A stretch of 64,000 nucleotides of DNA, taken from Myxococcus guangdongensis. Lineage in GTDB: Bacteria; Myxococcota; Myxococcia; Myxococcales; Myxococcaceae. Below the pieces are notes generated by a model, which did no database searches, had not been told where the DNA came from, and saw nothing but the letters and a program-made list of their open reading frames with translations. Position numbers and translations under genes: made by a program. Location: NCBI RefSeq assembly GCF_024198255.1, contig NZ_JAJVKW010000007.1, positions 186,001 through 250,000 on the forward strand, read 5' to 3'. Shown here piece after piece: positions 35,424 through 43,059 of this stretch. Numbering within the stretch: the stretch's first letter is position 1; each line of letters begins with the position of its first letter.

Positions 35424-35442
35424 GCCCCGCTCCAGGCGGGGC
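35424..35442 (-). terminator. GC hairpin after the formate dehydrogenase operon
   Basis: Perfect 7-bp arms GCCCCGC and GCGGGGC with a 5-nt loop, 20 bp past the stop of the NrfD-type gene and before the oxygenase gene. It suggests the oxygenase is a separate transcription unit. No T-run is present. Confidence 0.5.
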
Positions 35443-35461
35443 CGAACCACCAGGACGCCCC

Positions 35462-36616
35462 TCACCGCACCACGGGCAGCGGGAAACTCCAGGGCTTCCC
35501 ATCCGAGGCCACCGCGTGCCCCGTCACCTCCGCCGCCCCATGGCCCTGTCGCTGTGGCCTGAACGTGGCTTGCGGATTCCTCGCGGAGGCCTGCCCGCCA
35601 TGGAACACGGCGAAGCGCGCCGCCACCGCACCCACCGTCGTCAGCATGTCCGCCGCCACCTGCTTCCAGCGCTGCCTCCCCGGGAGCGCATCCACCACCA
35701 GCCCCGCCAATGAGCAGGCCCGGGACGTCTTCCAGAGCGTCCCAGACAGGCCCTCGGACAGCGGCCGGGCGACCTCCGGGGCTCGGCGCGCGTCGAGCTC
35801 CACCGCGTGCGCCATGACCACCTCCGCGGCCTTGCCCGCGAGGCGATAGGGCCGCAGCACCTCCGCCTCACGCTCGGTGTGCGGGGCCAGGGACAACAGG
35901 CTCCCCGCGCTCGCGCTCGCCGAGGCCATGAAGAACAAGGGCAGGGTGCGACGCGTGGACTGCCACAGCGGTATCGCCGTGTTGTTCAGCAGCACCGCCG
36001 TGTACCCGGCCAGCGGCATTCCCAGCATCGCGGCCGAATACCCCGCGACCTTGCCCGTGACCCCCAACACACCTCGCGAGCGCCCCAGCACCAGGCCCAC
36101 CGAGTTGAGCGCCCCCGACAACGCCAGCACCCACGAGCCCACGCTCATGGGCGACGTGGGCCGGAACACCCGGAGCATGTTCAGGAAGCGCGTGGGGCGA
36201 CCGAGGTCGGCGATCAACAACCCCGCACTCAGCATGTCCCCCGCGGTCCCCAACAGACGACAGCGTCGCGCGAGCGGCTCCATCGACTTCTCGCCGAGCA
36301 CATCGATGGCCAGTCCCAGCAGGCTCGCCGCACCCGCGACACCGCCCACGAAGAGATACGCCGGCACCGTGGCGATCCACACCGGCTGCTTGATGGCGGC
36401 CAGCCCGTGGTAGCTCGGCGCCTCCGCGGTGTCCGCGACGAAGTGGGACGGAACCTGTGCCTGGAAGCCATGGGCCGGATTGGCGCGGTCCAGGTCCGTC
36501 ACCCGTTGCTGGGCTCCCTCGCCGAGCAAGGTCCCCAGCGCGGGGTTCACGTTGCGGCCATCCGAGCGCCGCTGGAGCCTGTCCAGGAAGGTGTCGTCGC
36601 CGTCACGCGCGCTCAT
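35462..36616 (-). CDS. NrfD/PsrC-type membrane anchor of formate dehydrogenase
   Basis: A 384-residue integral membrane protein with about eight hydrophobic helices. The NrfD family core is seen in PVWIATVPAYLFVGGVAGAASLLG, then the IADLGRPTRFLNMLRVFRPTSPMSVGSW block. That block is the quinone-proximal signature of PsrC/NrfD proteins. It would pass electrons from the iron-sulfur subunit to the quinone pool. This replaces the cytochrome b556 (FdnI) anchor of the E. coli enzyme. Its start overlaps the stop of the iron-sulfur gene by 4 bp. It is the last gene of the three-gene operon. Confidence 0.92.
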   Translation of the reverse strand: MSARDGDDTFLDRLQRRSDGRNVNPALGTLLGEGAQQRVTDLDRANPAHGFQAQVPSHFVADTAEAPSYHGLAAIKQPVWIATVPAYLFVGGVAGAASLLGLAIDVLGEKSMEPLARRCRLLGTAGDMLSAGLLIADLGRPTRFLNMLRVFRPTSPMSVGSWVLALSGALNSVGLVLGRSRGVLGVTGKVAGYSAAMLGMPLAGYTAVLLNNTAIPLWQSTRRTLPLFFMASASASAGSLLSLAPHTEREAEVLRPYRLAGKAAEVVMAHAVELDARRAPEVARPLSEGLSGTLWKTSRACSLAGLVVDALPGRQRWKQVAADMLTTVGAVAARFAVFHGGQASARNPQATFRPQRQGHGAAEVTGHAVASDGKPWSFPLPVVR

Positions 36617-37410
36617 GAGTCCCCTCGGCGGCCGAGCAACACCGCGCCCACGGCCATGGCCGCCATCCCGAGCGCTCCCACGGCCACGGCGCCCCAGGCC
36701 TGTCCGGCCTTCATCGTCGGGACCACGGGGTCGGGTGGCAGGTTGTAGGCCTCCGGGCGATCCACGAGCAGGAAGAAGGCGTTGAGCCCGCCCGTCCCCG
36801 GCTGGTTCTTCGCGTCCTTGCCGTAGAGATAGGCGCTGATGATGCCCTGTGAGTGCAGCTCACGCAGTCGGTTGTCCGCGCGCTCATGCAGCACATCGAG
36901 GTCCCCGTAGACGATGGACTCGGTGGGGCACGCCTTCGCGCACGCGGGCGTCATGCCCTCGCCAATCCGGTCGTAGCAGAGGGTGCACTTCCACGCCCGA
37001 CCGTCATCCGGTCTCCGGTCGATGACGCCGAAGGGACAGCCCACCACGCAGTAACCGCAGCCGTTGCAGACATCCGGCTGGACGTAGACGGTGTCGAACT
37101 CGGTGCGGACGATGGCGCCCGTGGGACACGCCTCCAGACAGCCCGCGCGCTGACAGTGCTTGCAGACGTCCGACACCATCAACCACGAGAAGTCGCCCAC
37201 ACCCGTCGAGTGGCCCGGCATCGGCACCGGACGCTCCACGAAGGCCACGTGCCTCCAGGTCGAACAGCCCAAGTCCCCGGTCTGGTCATAGGACATCCCG
37301 GTGAACTGGAAGCCGTCATCGGGGAGCTGGTTCCATTGCTTGCAAGCCACCTCACAGGCCTTGCAACCAATGCACACCGTCGAATCGGTGAAGAAGCCCT
37401 TGCGACTCAT
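36613..37410 (-). CDS. Formate dehydrogenase iron-sulfur (beta) subunit
   Basis: 265 residues. Four [4Fe-4S] binding groups are visible: CIGCKACEVAC near the N-terminus, CKHCQRAGCLEACP, CNGCGYCVVGCP, and CTLCYDR with CAKACP. A hydrophobic C-terminal helix (WGAVAVGALGMAAMAVGAVLLG) anchors it, as in FdnH and HybA relatives. It carries electrons from the molybdenum/tungsten subunit to the NrfD anchor. The ATG has a GAGGAG site and lies 3 bp after the alpha stop; its own stop overlaps the next gene. Confidence 0.94.
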   Translation of the reverse strand: MSRKGFFTDSTVCIGCKACEVACKQWNQLPDDGFQFTGMSYDQTGDLGCSTWRHVAFVERPVPMPGHSTGVGDFSWLMVSDVCKHCQRAGCLEACPTGAIVRTEFDTVYVQPDVCNGCGYCVVGCPFGVIDRRPDDGRAWKCTLCYDRIGEGMTPACAKACPTESIVYGDLDVLHERADNRLRELHSQGIISAYLYGKDAKNQPGTGGLNAFFLLVDRPEAYNLPPDPVVPTMKAGQAWGAVAVGALGMAAMAVGAVLLGRRGDS

Positions 37411-37413
37411 GCG

Positions 37414-40400
37414 CTATTGCTCCTCGTCCTTCTTCTCCTGCCAGGGGACATGATCGATTTCGCCGACCGACAGGCGGTCGCGTCGGTGCGGCGCCAGGTC
37501 CGCGGGCAGGGCAGGGGGCGTGGCACCCGTCGCCGCCCGAGCCCCGGTGGCGTGTCGGCCCGCGATGACGTCGCAGGTGAGCGCCTTCGACTCCTGGATG
37601 TCCACGTTGGGGTCCGCGACGAAGCCCAGCAGCTCGTTGGCGCCATCCGCGCGCGTGCGTCCCGTCACGCCCCAGTGATACGGGATGCCCACCTGGTGAA
37701 CCGACGTCCCGTTGAGCTTCAGCGGGCGCAGCCGCTCGGTGACGAGCACCCGGCACTCCAGGTCTCCGCGCGCCGTGCGCAGCGTGGCCCAGCCTCCGTT
37801 GCGCAGCCCCCGCTCGCGCGCCAGCTCCACGGAGACCTCGCAGAACTGTTCGGGCTGGAGCTCGCTGAGCCAGGACAGCCAGCGACTCATTCCGCCCGCC
37901 GTGTGGTGCTCGGTGAGTCGGTATGTGGTGAGGATGAAGGGGAAGCGCGGGTCGCCCCACGCGCGGTGGTAGGGGTTGCCCTTGCGGCGCCACTCCAAGC
38001 GCGTCGGATTGCACTGCTGCCCGTAGAGCGCGTTCTTCACCGGCGACTCCATGGGCTCGTAGTGCGTGGGCAACGGGCCATCGAGCATCCCGCTCGGCGC
38101 GAAGAGCCAGGCCTTGCCGTCGGCCTGCATGATGAATGGCTCGTCCCCCGCCAGGGACTCGATGCCCTTGGCGCCGGGCGGAGGTCGGTAGTCCGGTGGC
38201 CGGTCCGCGATGCAGTCGGGCACGTCCTCGCCGGTCCACTGGCGCTGCGTCTCGTCCCACCAGACGTACTTCTTGCGCTCGCTCCAGGGACGGCCTTGCG
38301 GGTCCGCGGAGGCGCGGTTGTAGAGGATGCGGCGGTTGGCGGGCCATGCCCAGCCCCACTCGGGCGCCACCCAGGTCTGCGCGTGTCCCGGCTTGCGGCG
38401 CGCGGCCTGGTTCACGCCGTCCGCGTAGGCTCCGGAGTAGATCCAACAGCCGCACGCGGTGGTGCCGTCATCCTTCAGCGCGGTGAAGCCGCTCACGGGC
38501 TGGCCGTCCGCCACGGTGTAGCCGTTGATCTCCCGGAGCACCGCCTCGGCGCTCGGCTCCTCGAGTGCGCCGTGGGTCGGATAGTCCCACGTCAGGTGGC
38601 GCAGGGCCTGGTCCTTCGGCGCTCCCGAGGCCGCGTACAGACGCTTGAGCCTGCGGCCCAGGTGGAAGGCGAAGTGCAGCTCGCTGCGCACGTCCTCGCG
38701 GGGCTCCACCGCCGCGTGGTGCCATTGGAGCATCCGCTGCGTGTTGGTGAAGGAGCCGTCCTTCTCCGTGTGCGCGGCGGCCGGGAAGAAGAAGACCTCC
38801 GTGCGGATGTCCTCCGTCTTCACGTCGCCTCGCTGGATTTCGGGGGCCGTGCGCCAGAACTCGGCCGTCTCGATGAGCGTGAAGTCGCGCACCACCAGCC
38901 ACTCGAGCTGGCGCAGGCCCTTGCGTTGGAGCGCTCCGTTCATCGAGCCCACCGCCGGGTTCTCGCCCATGACGAAGTAGCCCTGGACGCGGCCCTCGGC
39001 CATGTCGACCACCGTCTGCATGTGCGAGTGATTGCCGGTGAGCCGGGGCAGGTGGCGGAAGCCGAACTCGTTCTCCTCGGTCGCCGCGTCCCCGAACCAG
39101 GCCTTCAGGAGCGAGACGACGTATTTGGGATAATTGCTCCACCAGCCCGTGCTGGACGTGTGTGACTCCAGGTAGTCGGCCAGCGCGGGCGACTGCGCGG
39201 AGCTCGGCATGGGGAGGTAGCCGGGCAGCAGGTTGAACAGGGTGGGGATGTCCGTGGAGCCCTGGATGGACGAGTGCCCGCGCAGCGCGAGGATTCCGCC
39301 GCCGGGCCGGCCGATGTTTCCCAACAGGAGCTGGAGGATGGTCGCGGTGCGGATGTACTGCACGCCCACCGAGTGCTGCGTCCAGCCCACCGCGTAACAG
39401 AAGGCCGTGGTGCGCTCGCGGCCGGAGTTGTCGCAGAGCGTCTGGGCGACCTTCAGGAACTGCTCCTCGGGGACGCCGCAGACCTTGGCGACGATGGCCG
39501 GGGTGTAGCGCTGGAAGTGGCGCCGGAGGACCTGGAACACGCAGCGCGGGTGCTGGAGCGTGGGGTCCTTGGTGGCCTCGGTGATGAGGGTGGCGTGCGT
39601 CTCGCCTTCGCCCGCGCCGGGCTCCGAGTAGAGCTCCTTGTGGCCGGAGGCAGGGGTGGGGCCCTCGACGCCCTCGTAGCTCCAAGAGCGGACGTCGTAC
39701 TTGTTCTCCTTCGGCAGGAAGCCGCTGAAGAGCCCGTCCAGGTCCTCCGTGTCTTGAAAGTCCTCGCGCACCAGGTTGGCGGCGTTGGTGTAGTGGACGA
39801 CGTACTCCTTGAAGTAGCGCTCGTACTCGAGCACGTAGCGCACGAGCCCTCCGAGGAACGCGATGTCCGAACCGACGCGAATGGGCACGTGTTGATTCGC
39901 CACGGCGCTGGTGCGCGTGTAGCGAGGGTCCACGTGGATGACCGTCGCACCCCGGGCCTTGGCCTCCATCACCCACTGGAAGCCCACCGGGTGACACTCG
40001 GCCATGTTGGAGCCCTGGATGAGGATGCAGTCAGAGTTGCGCAGGTCTTGTTGGAAGGTCGTGGCCCCGCCACGCCCGAGCGTGATGCCCAGACCGGGCA
40101 CCGTGGACGAGTGTCATATTCGAGCCTGGTTCTCCACCTGGACGATGCCGAGGGAGGTGAAGAGCTTCTTGAGGAGGTAGTTCTCCTCGTTGTCGAGCGT
40201 GGCGCCGCCCAGGTGCGCGATGCCCAGCGTGCGCTGGACGCTGAAGCCGTTGACGTCGGCGGCCTCCCAGGTCGCGTCGCGGGTGCGCTTCACGCGCGCG
40301 GCGACCATGTCCATGGCCTGCTCGAGGGGGAGGCGTTCCCACGCGGTGCCGCCGGGACGGCGGTAGAGGACGTGTTGGACGCGGTGGGTGCCGGTGACGA

Positions 40401-40683
40401 GTTGGAAGGTGGCGGAGCCCTTGGGGCACAGGCGGCCTCGGGAGATGGGCGAGTCCGGGTCGCCTTCGATGTCGATGATGCGCTCGTCCTTGACGTAGAT
40501 GTCCTGCCCGCAGCCCACGGCGCAGTACGGGCAGACGGATTTGACGACACGGTCCGCGAGGGAGGTGCGGGGCGTGAGCGTCCGACTGCGCTCCGTCATG
40601 GCCGTCTCGCCGAGCGCCTTGACGTCGCCACGTGCGATTTGACGCAGGACGGGCCAGCGGAACAGCAGGTCGAGGATTCCCAC
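37414..40683 (-). CDS. fdnG: Formate dehydrogenase alpha subunit, selenocysteine-containing (UGA read as Sec)
   Basis: One gene of 1089 residues read through an in-frame TGA at 40116-40114 (Sec190). The sequence on either side is contiguous with the family: VENQARI, then Sec, then HSSTVPGLG, matching the formate dehydrogenase-N active site (NQARI-U-H). An N-terminal [4Fe-4S] cluster has Cys51, Cys54, Cys58 and Cys86 (CPYCAVGCGQ, RLCPKG). Downstream are molybdopterin-bis-MGD motifs (LIQGSNMAECHPVGFQW, GENPAVGSMNG) and a C-terminal molydop-binding domain (PYHWGVTGRT). GTG 40683 is chosen because AGGAGG lies 6 bp upstream. No twin-arginine motif is seen at the N-terminus. It oxidises formate to CO2 and feeds electrons to the beta and NrfD subunits. 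The selenium-insertion genes (selA, selB, selC, selD) are not in the window. Confidence 0.95.
40084..40116 (-). promoter_or_regulatory. Bacterial SECIS element directly after the Sec codon
   Basis: Immediately downstream of the TGA (40116-40114) the mRNA can form a stem GGUGCCC (40102-40096) with GGGCAUC (40090-40084), including one G-U pair. The apical loop is GGUCU, the same as in the E. coli fdhF SECIS loop that binds SelB. The spacing of 11 nt from UGA to the stem is in the usual range. It would direct selenocysteine insertion instead of termination. Confidence 0.85.
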
Positions 40684-41031
40684 GGTGGACCTCCTGGTCG
40701 GCGTCACGCCGGCTTCTGCGCCGTGATGATGGAGGTCGAGCGCGCATGAAGCCTTGCACAAGAGGGCGCGCGCCCCCGCACACGTCAGCGGCCGGACGGT
40801 TCCGCGGATGAGTTGTCTTCAGGTGGATGGGTGTCTCACGTCGCCCCCGCACCCGGCTGTCGTCATTCCCCGCACCGCTCGGAGATGTGAGTCATTCCGC
40901 CGGACACACTTCGGGTTGTTGCTGAACATTGAGCTGATTATCGTGCGTGGACGCGACCAGCGATTCCGCGGACAGGCATTCCCTATCCGTCTGCCATCAG
41001 CCTGGTGCTGATTCTCCCCTGGACAGCCAGA
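40684..41031. other. 348-bp divergent intergenic region
   Basis: Separates the leftward formate dehydrogenase operon from the rightward terpene synthases and must hold both promoters. An AT-richer patch around 40915-40945 lies on the terpene side. I see no gene and no operator I can name. Confidence 0.5.
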
Positions 41032-42063
41032 ATGACACCCTCGAAGACAGGTCTGCCTCGTGTAGAAATTCCGTATCCAGCTGGGTTCAGCCCGGACCTG
41101 GAGCGCACCCATACGATTCATCTGCACTGGATGGAGGCACAGGGGCTGGTCGTCGGCCCCGACGCCCTGAGGGCTTACGACTCGATAGGCGCCGAGGTGC
41201 TTGGTGCAAGGGCGTACCGAGATGCCCGCGGGGCCGGACTCGAACTCGCGACTGACTTGATGGGCTGGTTCTTCATCTTTGATGACCAGTTCGATGGGCC
41301 ACTGGGGCGAGACATCGAGGCGACCCGCTCCACGCTGGAGGAGTTCCTGGCGATGGCGCGAGTCGGCGGGAGGGTGCGCCATCCCTCGTCTGTCCTGTGC
41401 ACATCCTGGCTCGACCTGTGGTGTCGAGCGACTCGAGGAATGAGTGACGCCTGGATCGAGCGCTATGCCGGAGACTTCTTCCGGTTCTTCCAATCGTTCG
41501 AGCAGGAGGCACTGGACCGATCTCGAGGCCTGCCCGTCGAGATGGAAGGCTACCTGGCGAATCGACGGGTTTCGATTGGCGTGGTACCCGCGCTGGACCT
41601 CTGTGAGCCAGTGGGAGGTTACGAACTCCCGCAGGAGATTCACGCCTGCGAGCCGATGGTCACCATGCGGCAGGCGTGTACGGACGTCATCCTGCTGGAA
41701 AACGACATCTACTCGGCGTCGAAGGAAGCAGCGATGGGGCAGGTGCACAACGTCGTGCTGCTACGGATGCGCGATGTGGGGTGCGGTCAGGAGGAGGCTT
41801 CGCAGTGGGCAATGGCTCTCCTCCAGGAACGACTCCTCCTCTTCGCGAAGGCCGAGCAGCAGCTGCGAGAAGGTGTCCGGTCCCTCAAGACCTGGGGCGC
41901 GATCAATCGTGGCATCTCCGCGATGAAGAACTGGATGCAAGGCCACCACGACTGGACCCTTGCGTCGGGTCGATACAACGACACCCGCCTTCAATTCCCC
42001 GAAGGACCGGAGCGATGGGCGTCGCTGCTCAACCCAGCGCAGGAACAAACCAAGGCGTCATGA
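41032..42063 (+). CDS. Class I terpene synthase (first of tandem pair)
   Basis: A 343-residue bacterial terpene cyclase. The aspartate-rich metal motif is DDQFD (Asp84-Asp88), and the NSE/DTE triad is NDIYSASKE (Asn224, Ser228, Glu232). The C-terminal RY pair is in SGRYND, and LATDLMGWFFIFDDQFDGP is typical of sesquiterpene synthases. It cyclises a linear prenyl diphosphate (probably farnesyl or geranyl) in the cytoplasm with Mg2+. The start at 41032 is preferred. It is followed 18 bp later by a paralogue. No prenyltransferase or P450 is adjacent. GC content is a little lower than the surroundings. Confidence 0.93.
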   Translation: MTPSKTGLPRVEIPYPAGFSPDLERTHTIHLHWMEAQGLVVGPDALRAYDSIGAEVLGARAYRDARGAGLELATDLMGWFFIFDDQFDGPLGRDIEATRSTLEEFLAMARVGGRVRHPSSVLCTSWLDLWCRATRGMSDAWIERYAGDFFRFFQSFEQEALDRSRGLPVEMEGYLANRRVSIGVVPALDLCEPVGGYELPQEIHACEPMVTMRQACTDVILLENDIYSASKEAAMGQVHNVVLLRMRDVGCGQEEASQWAMALLQERLLLFAKAEQQLREGVRSLKTWGAINRGISAMKNWMQGHHDWTLASGRYNDTRLQFPEGPERWASLLNPAQEQTKAS

Positions 42064-42081
42064 AGGCAAATGGGAGGTTCC

Positions 42082-43059
42082 ATGCATGCCGCTGCTCCTC
42101 AAATCGACCTTCGCCATGTCGCGGGCATCAGTCCTGATGTCGAGGCCACTCGGGCGCATACCCTTCATTGGCTGGCCGTCCATGGACTCATCGTCCAGCC
42201 AGCGGCCCTTCAGACCTACGACGCGAGTCGGTTCGATCGGCTGTCCGCGAGAATGTGTCCGAATGGTCGAGGAGCTGGCCTCGACCTGGTGAGCGACTGG
42301 ATGGGGTGGTTCTTCGTCTTCGACGATCAGTTCGATGGACCGATTGGGCTCGACCTCGATGCGACCCGCGCCTTGCTGGACGAGTTGTTGTTGGTGACCC
42401 AGAGCACGGCCGCCCAGCGGTATCCTTCATCGCTCCTGGGAGCCGCCCTGGTGGAGTTGTGGGGGCGGTCGACGTCTGGAGCGAGTGCGTCCTGGAGGGC
42501 GCGGTTCACCCAAGACCTCGCGGAGTACCTCGAGTCCTACTACCAGGAAGCTCGGGAGCGCACGCAGGGATGGCCCGTGGACATCGAGACCTATCTGCGC
42601 ACGCGACGTCTATCGATCGGCGTCCTACCGAGCCTCGACATCTGCGAACGGGCCGAGGGGCTCGACGTTCCGCCCGCCGTGCATGGCACCGACGACATGA
42701 CGACGCTGCGCTCGCTGTGCACGGACGTCGTGGTGATGGTCAACGACATCTACTCGGCGCCCAAGGAGGCCGCGAGCGGGCAGTTGCACAACATGGTGCT
42801 CCTCCAGGTGCGTGATGCGGGCTGCGGGCAAACCGCCGCCATGGACTGGGTCGCGGGTGAAATCGCGAAGCGGGTGGAGTCCTTCGCGGCCGTGGAGCGG
42901 CGGATACGACAAGGTGTCCAGAGCGTCGAGACCTGGAGCGCCGTCGACCGGGAGATCGCCGCGATCAAGAACCTGATGCAGGGCACCACGGATTGGACAC
43001 TCGAGTCTGCTCGCTACGCCCATCCCGCTCAGGGCGCCCGCGTGAGGGTGACAGGATAG
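42082..43059 (+). CDS. Class I terpene synthase (second of tandem pair)
   Basis: 325 residues, clearly a diverged duplicate of the preceding gene: same order and spacing of the motifs DDQFD (Asp81-Asp85) and NDIYSAPKE (Asn221, Ser225, Glu229), and a closing MQGTTDWTLESARY. The ATG at 42082 follows GGGAGG; a less likely ATG is 12 bp upstream. Its 3' end overlaps the convergent gene by 31 bp. The two enzymes may make different products, or form a pair from recent subfunctionalisation; the sequence does not decide. The product is unknown. Confidence 0.92.
   Translation: MHAAAPQIDLRHVAGISPDVEATRAHTLHWLAVHGLIVQPAALQTYDASRFDRLSARMCPNGRGAGLDLVSDWMGWFFVFDDQFDGPIGLDLDATRALLDELLLVTQSTAAQRYPSSLLGAALVELWGRSTSGASASWRARFTQDLAEYLESYYQEARERTQGWPVDIETYLRTRRLSIGVLPSLDICERAEGLDVPPAVHGTDDMTTLRSLCTDVVVMVNDIYSAPKEAASGQLHNMVLLQVRDAGCGQTAAMDWVAGEIAKRVESFAAVERRIRQGVQSVETWSAVDREIAAIKNLMQGTTDWTLESARYAHPAQGARVRVTG

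Follow-up and report, generated by a model that had tools for sequence, protein, structure and literature searches.

Does an in-frame UGA in a formate dehydrogenase (FDH) gene of Myxococcus guangdongensis mark a broken reading frame, or is it decoded as selenocysteine (Sec)? The gene, fdhA, lies on the minus strand of the 64-kb stretch of DNA analysed here (the window), where it occupies positions 37414..40683 and encodes an alpha subunit of 1089 amino acids that would contain Sec. Profile matches, conservation of the TGA, covariation and the presence of the decoding machinery support the original prediction of a Sec formate dehydrogenase with UGA recoding and a SECIS element, and no evidence of weight speaks against it. 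On these grounds, fdhA is almost certainly a classical bacterial selenoprotein gene, in which UGA would be decoded as Sec through the SECIS and SelB.

The frame runs from a GTG start at 40683, with AGGAGG 5 nt upstream, to a stop at 37414, and comprises 1,089 codons with no second stop and no frameshift; its sole in-frame TGA is codon 190 (minus strand, 40114..40116). Standard ORF calling yields two pieces, an ORF of 215 aa that stops at the TGA and one of 895 aa that starts from GTG 40101, which is the split in two that had been foreseen for gene finders. Read through, FdhA matches NF041513 at 1870.1 bits (cut-off 1400; profile positions 3-1058 of 1067) and TIGR01553 (FDH-N alpha) at 992.4 bits (cut-off 814.2). 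Both halves, in the same frame, belong to one family match, and this continuity on either side of the TGA bears out the reading of a single alpha-subunit gene interrupted by an in-frame UGA (Sec190). The solved structures nearest to FdhA are Sec formate dehydrogenases, and in the alignment to them the UGA residue falls on the Sec of Desulfovibrio 1h0h (printed as X), at the position of the Cys/Sec ligand of Mo. The surrounding residues, NQARI-U-H, had been described as the exact active-site context of FDH-N; they are near-identical rather than exact, since E. coli FdnG has NQARV-U-H.

Beyond the UGA lies a hairpin (minus strand, 40084..40102) that is identified as a bacterial SECIS by its fold, covariation, silent-site invariance, loss in Cys homologues and E. 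coli register. It begins 11 nt after the UGA and consists of a 7-bp stem and a 5-nt apical loop, GGUCU, as was predicted and as folding confirms. Published constraints on bacterial SECIS elements are a loop of 3-9 nt, a stem of 4-16 bp, a G in the first two loop positions, a distance from UGA to loop of 16-37 nt and an MFE <= -7.5 (PMC13188914). The hairpin lies within them, with 18 nt between UGA and loop and an energy of -10.8 to -12.3 kcal/mol, and its stem covaries, so the suggested SECIS check on the sequence after the UGA gave a positive result. With nucleotides counted from the U of the UGA, it shares its register with the E. coli fdhF and fdnG SECIS (U17, G23, U24, loop nucleotides 22-26), and its loop sequence is that of fdhF, whereas fdnG has AGUCU. 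The likeness to the fdhF SECIS that had been proposed therefore holds for register and loop, but does not extend to the one-base bulge that minimum-energy folding places in the upper stem of E. coli fdhF, as the stem here is continuous over 7 bp. The two strands of the window together contain 1,390 TGAs, of which that of fdhA is the only one with a 6-bp stem in the same register and GU at 23-24, and an Rfam scan of the window returned no match. In single-sequence folding, the hairpin is modestly more stable than shuffled sequences (z of -2.6 for 21 nt, and of -0.5, not significant, for 53 nt). Because folding energy is weak by itself, the case for the hairpin rests on comparative data, which are decisive.

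These data come from 36 diverse relatives and the 6-bp core of the stem, with 500 shuffles and slid controls; the seventh, outermost pair is not conserved. Stem-core cells are paired in 99.5% of cases, against 91% in shuffles and 30-62% in slid controls, double changes number 16 against 3.8 in shuffles, and the covariation score was reached by none of the 500 shuffles and lies above all slides. It could be argued that the hairpin is a by-product of the conserved peptide V-P-G-L-G and not an RNA element, given that GTN CCN GGN CTN GGN has some inherent pairing potential. Such an origin is difficult to reconcile with pair 18-30, which occurs as C-G, G-C, U-A and U-G and links a Val (GTN) with a Gly (GGN) codon, each through its third position, so that changes are synonymous in both codons and yet compensated. 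Nor would it account for codons +4 to +10, which do not vary in 30 myxobacterial copies and include GGT, the Gly codon that these genes use least. No other run of this length in the gene is invariant throughout, and +4 to +10 is the top 7-codon window among invariant-residue codons, at 1.00 (mean 0.82, sd 0.07). Furthermore, five distant actinobacterial copies, of about 60-63% identity, carry TGC (Cys) at the Sec site and have broken stems (60% paired) despite encoding nearly the same peptide. Silent-site invariance, covariation and the Cys homologues together rule out the by-product, to which we assign practically no probability, and point to the hairpin as a real and genuine RNA element.

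A further form of the enzyme is found in six copies from the Geodermatophilaceae, in which the codon at the Sec site is TAG and the hairpin is kept. These copies belong to the genera Blastococcus, Geodermatophilus and Modestobacter. All five of their genomes that were searched contain a long-arm tRNA that fits the tRNA-Sec model and has a CUA anticodon, in line with the UAG-encoded Sec already published for this family (PMC5330540); ARAGORN labels these tRNA-Sec-like genes tRNA-Pyl. As the hairpin is retained with TAG and lost with Cys, it tracks selenocysteine rather than the letters of the codon or the peptide, and the UGA, UAG and Cys forms of one enzyme make a clean natural comparison, in which only the Cys form has lost the hairpin. 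A tRNA-Sec model search of the five genomes with Cys copies gave no match in three. The genomes of Actinomadura logoneensis and Actinacidiphila acididurans encode a Cys formate dehydrogenase yet retain a UCA tRNA-Sec, as if the change to Cys had come first and the machinery were yet to be lost, or as if further selenoproteins were left.

The Sec machinery of M. guangdongensis was sought in its 11.2-Mb genome, where tRNA-Sec, selA, selB, selD and fdhD lie on different contigs. All four genes named for checking in the original prediction were found above their cut-offs: selA at 553 bits (cut-off 268), selB at 292 bits on its main stretch (cut-off 242) and with SelB-wing_2 and wing_3 domains, selD at 385 bits (cut-off 125), and selC, the tRNA-Sec, at 62.1 bits (cut-off 47) with a UCA anticodon according to ARAGORN. 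The presence of selB and tRNA-Sec removes the objection that the machinery might be absent. The selD of this genome is a Cys form.

Two other explanations of the UGA have to be weighed against decoding as Sec. Versions of the family with TGC at the site exist, so a Cys codon (TGC or TGT) might have been mutated to TGA in a pseudogene, or misread as TGA in sequencing, leaving a truncated enzyme. The distribution of the TGA argues strongly against this, as codon 190 is TGA at the DNA level in 30 of 30 myxobacterial copies from independent assemblies, and each of about 52 near relatives from the order has exactly one internal stop, a TGA. These 30 copies also keep the hairpin; close homologues with a Cys codon, which had been named as potential counter-evidence, do not occur among them. 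Also at odds with decay or error are the 1089 codons free of any other stop or frameshift, the silent-site constraint and covariation downstream, and the complete Sec machinery in the genome. The earlier judgement that a frameshift or pseudogene does not fit is thus upheld by the same-frame match across the TGA and its conservation in relatives; with TGA and hairpin conserved across phyla, a frameshift, pseudogene or sequencing error is refuted, its remaining probability being negligible.

Alternatively, the UGA could be read by a near-cognate tRNA (e.g., that for Trp) or be reassigned to an amino acid other than Sec, given that UGA read-through is possible in principle. However, the codon stands at the Mo-ligand Cys/Sec site, the genome encodes tRNA-Sec (UCA), selA, selB and selD, and the SECIS is kept. 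In addition, the swap to TAG in relatives together with a CUA tRNA-Sec makes sense only for Sec, which renders near-cognate reading or reassignment extremely improbable. Decoding of codon 190 as Sec is by far the better reading of the locus.

Downstream of fdhA, the operon continues with fdhB (minus strand, 36613..37410), which begins 3 nt after fdhA. Its product is a beta subunit of the ferredoxin type (multi-4Fe-4S), with matches to Fer4_11 and further Fer4 domains and one C-terminal TM helix (TM-like stretch 238-261). Its best match is TIGR01582 (FDH-beta), at 182.7 bits and thus below the cut-off of 334.7. Overlapping fdhB by 4 nt is a gene for an NrfD/PsrC-type membrane subunit (minus strand, 35462..36616), with matches to PF14589 and PF03916 (NrfD/NrfD_2 only). 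The order of alpha, ferredoxin-type beta and NrfD-like genes recurs in the ORF lists of two relatives. A simple motif scan of FdhA found no TM-like stretch and, over the 80 N-terminal residues, no RRx motif followed by a hydrophobic residue. Without a Tat motif, and with a membrane subunit that is not FdnI-like, the system resembles FDH-N in the alpha subunit, whereas the complex as a whole is not of the E. coli FDH-N type: its anchor is NrfD-type, its beta subunit scores under the cut-off and no Tat signal was found. At 35428-35509, across the 3' end of the NrfD-type gene, ARAGORN also calls a tRNA-His. This call is probably false, as Rfam detects no tRNA at that place and no tRNA-His lies close to the operon in the relatives that were scanned. 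On the other side, two tandem terpene synthases (41005-43059) are divergent from fdhA, with isoafricanol synthase as the closest match, well below cut-off.

In the mechanism that these genes suggest, a ribosome would arrive at UGA 190 of the fdhA mRNA, and SelB-GTP-Sec-tRNA(UCA) would bind the hairpin 11 nt downstream and deliver Sec in place of release. The Sec would then ligate the Mo or W of the bis-MGD cofactor, aided by FdhD, whose gene is present in the same genome. The enzyme would oxidise formate, and electrons would pass through the alpha subunit's Fe4S4 cluster, the ferredoxin-like beta subunit and the NrfD-type membrane subunit to the quinone pool. As no Tat signal was seen, the catalytic alpha subunit would face the cytoplasm. 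There is an even chance that aerobic predatory myxobacteria and actinobacteria of the soil have a Sec formate dehydrogenase that combines a cytoplasm-facing alpha subunit with delivery to quinone via an NrfD-type anchor, and that the genus keeps Sec decoding even in species without the enzyme. If true, the combination of cytoplasm-facing alpha subunit and NrfD-type anchor would be a bioenergetic arrangement unlike that of FDH-N.

Within the genus, the formate dehydrogenase gene is missing from 12 of 27 genomes (E 1e-100), and selA and tRNA-Sec are present in all 27. Since species that lack the gene keep selA and tRNA-Sec, the enzyme is not the sole reason for which the genus keeps the Sec machinery, and one or more further selenoproteins are to be expected in the genus. 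A search for the UGSC family, a possible other selenoprotein, gave no match, and neither did its control, so this negative carries no weight. The literature found on myxobacterial selenoproteins contained nothing on this formate dehydrogenase.

Among bacterial selenoproteins, formate dehydrogenase is the most widespread family (PMC13188914, PMC5029168). The mechanism of UGA-Sec decoding and the enzyme family are both well known, the decoding is standard, and the understanding of selenocysteine decoding is unchanged by this case. Its main value is for annotation, as standard gene calling halves the enzyme and hides its active site.

Compared with known systems, the closest match to FdhA over its full length is NF041513 (NCBIfam 'formate dehydrogenase', an exception model). 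The close relatives of this type, Sec formate dehydrogenases from Actinomycetota, Myxococcota and others, share the TGA and hairpin and, among those named, 60-89% identity; the only difference of note is the myxobacterial host. The UAG-Sec formate dehydrogenases of the Geodermatophilaceae have the enzyme family and the hairpin in common with fdhA, but use a TAG codon and a CUA tRNA-Sec anticodon where M. guangdongensis has TGA and UCA. A presumably related membrane formate dehydrogenase, dependent on selenium, is backed by physiology and proteomics in Actinomycetospora chiangmaiensis, in which formate removal is selenite-dependent and membrane FDH subunits occur in the proteome (PMC7176365). 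E. coli FdnGHI and the W/Se formate dehydrogenase of Desulfovibrio (1h0h) share with the complex described here the alpha family (TIGR01553), the Sec position and a Fer4-type beta subunit. However, E. coli FDH-N has a cytochrome b556-type membrane subunit, FdnI, and a Tat-exported alpha subunit, whereas the M. guangdongensis operon encodes an NrfD-type subunit and an FdhA in which the simple motif scan found no twin-arginine motif.
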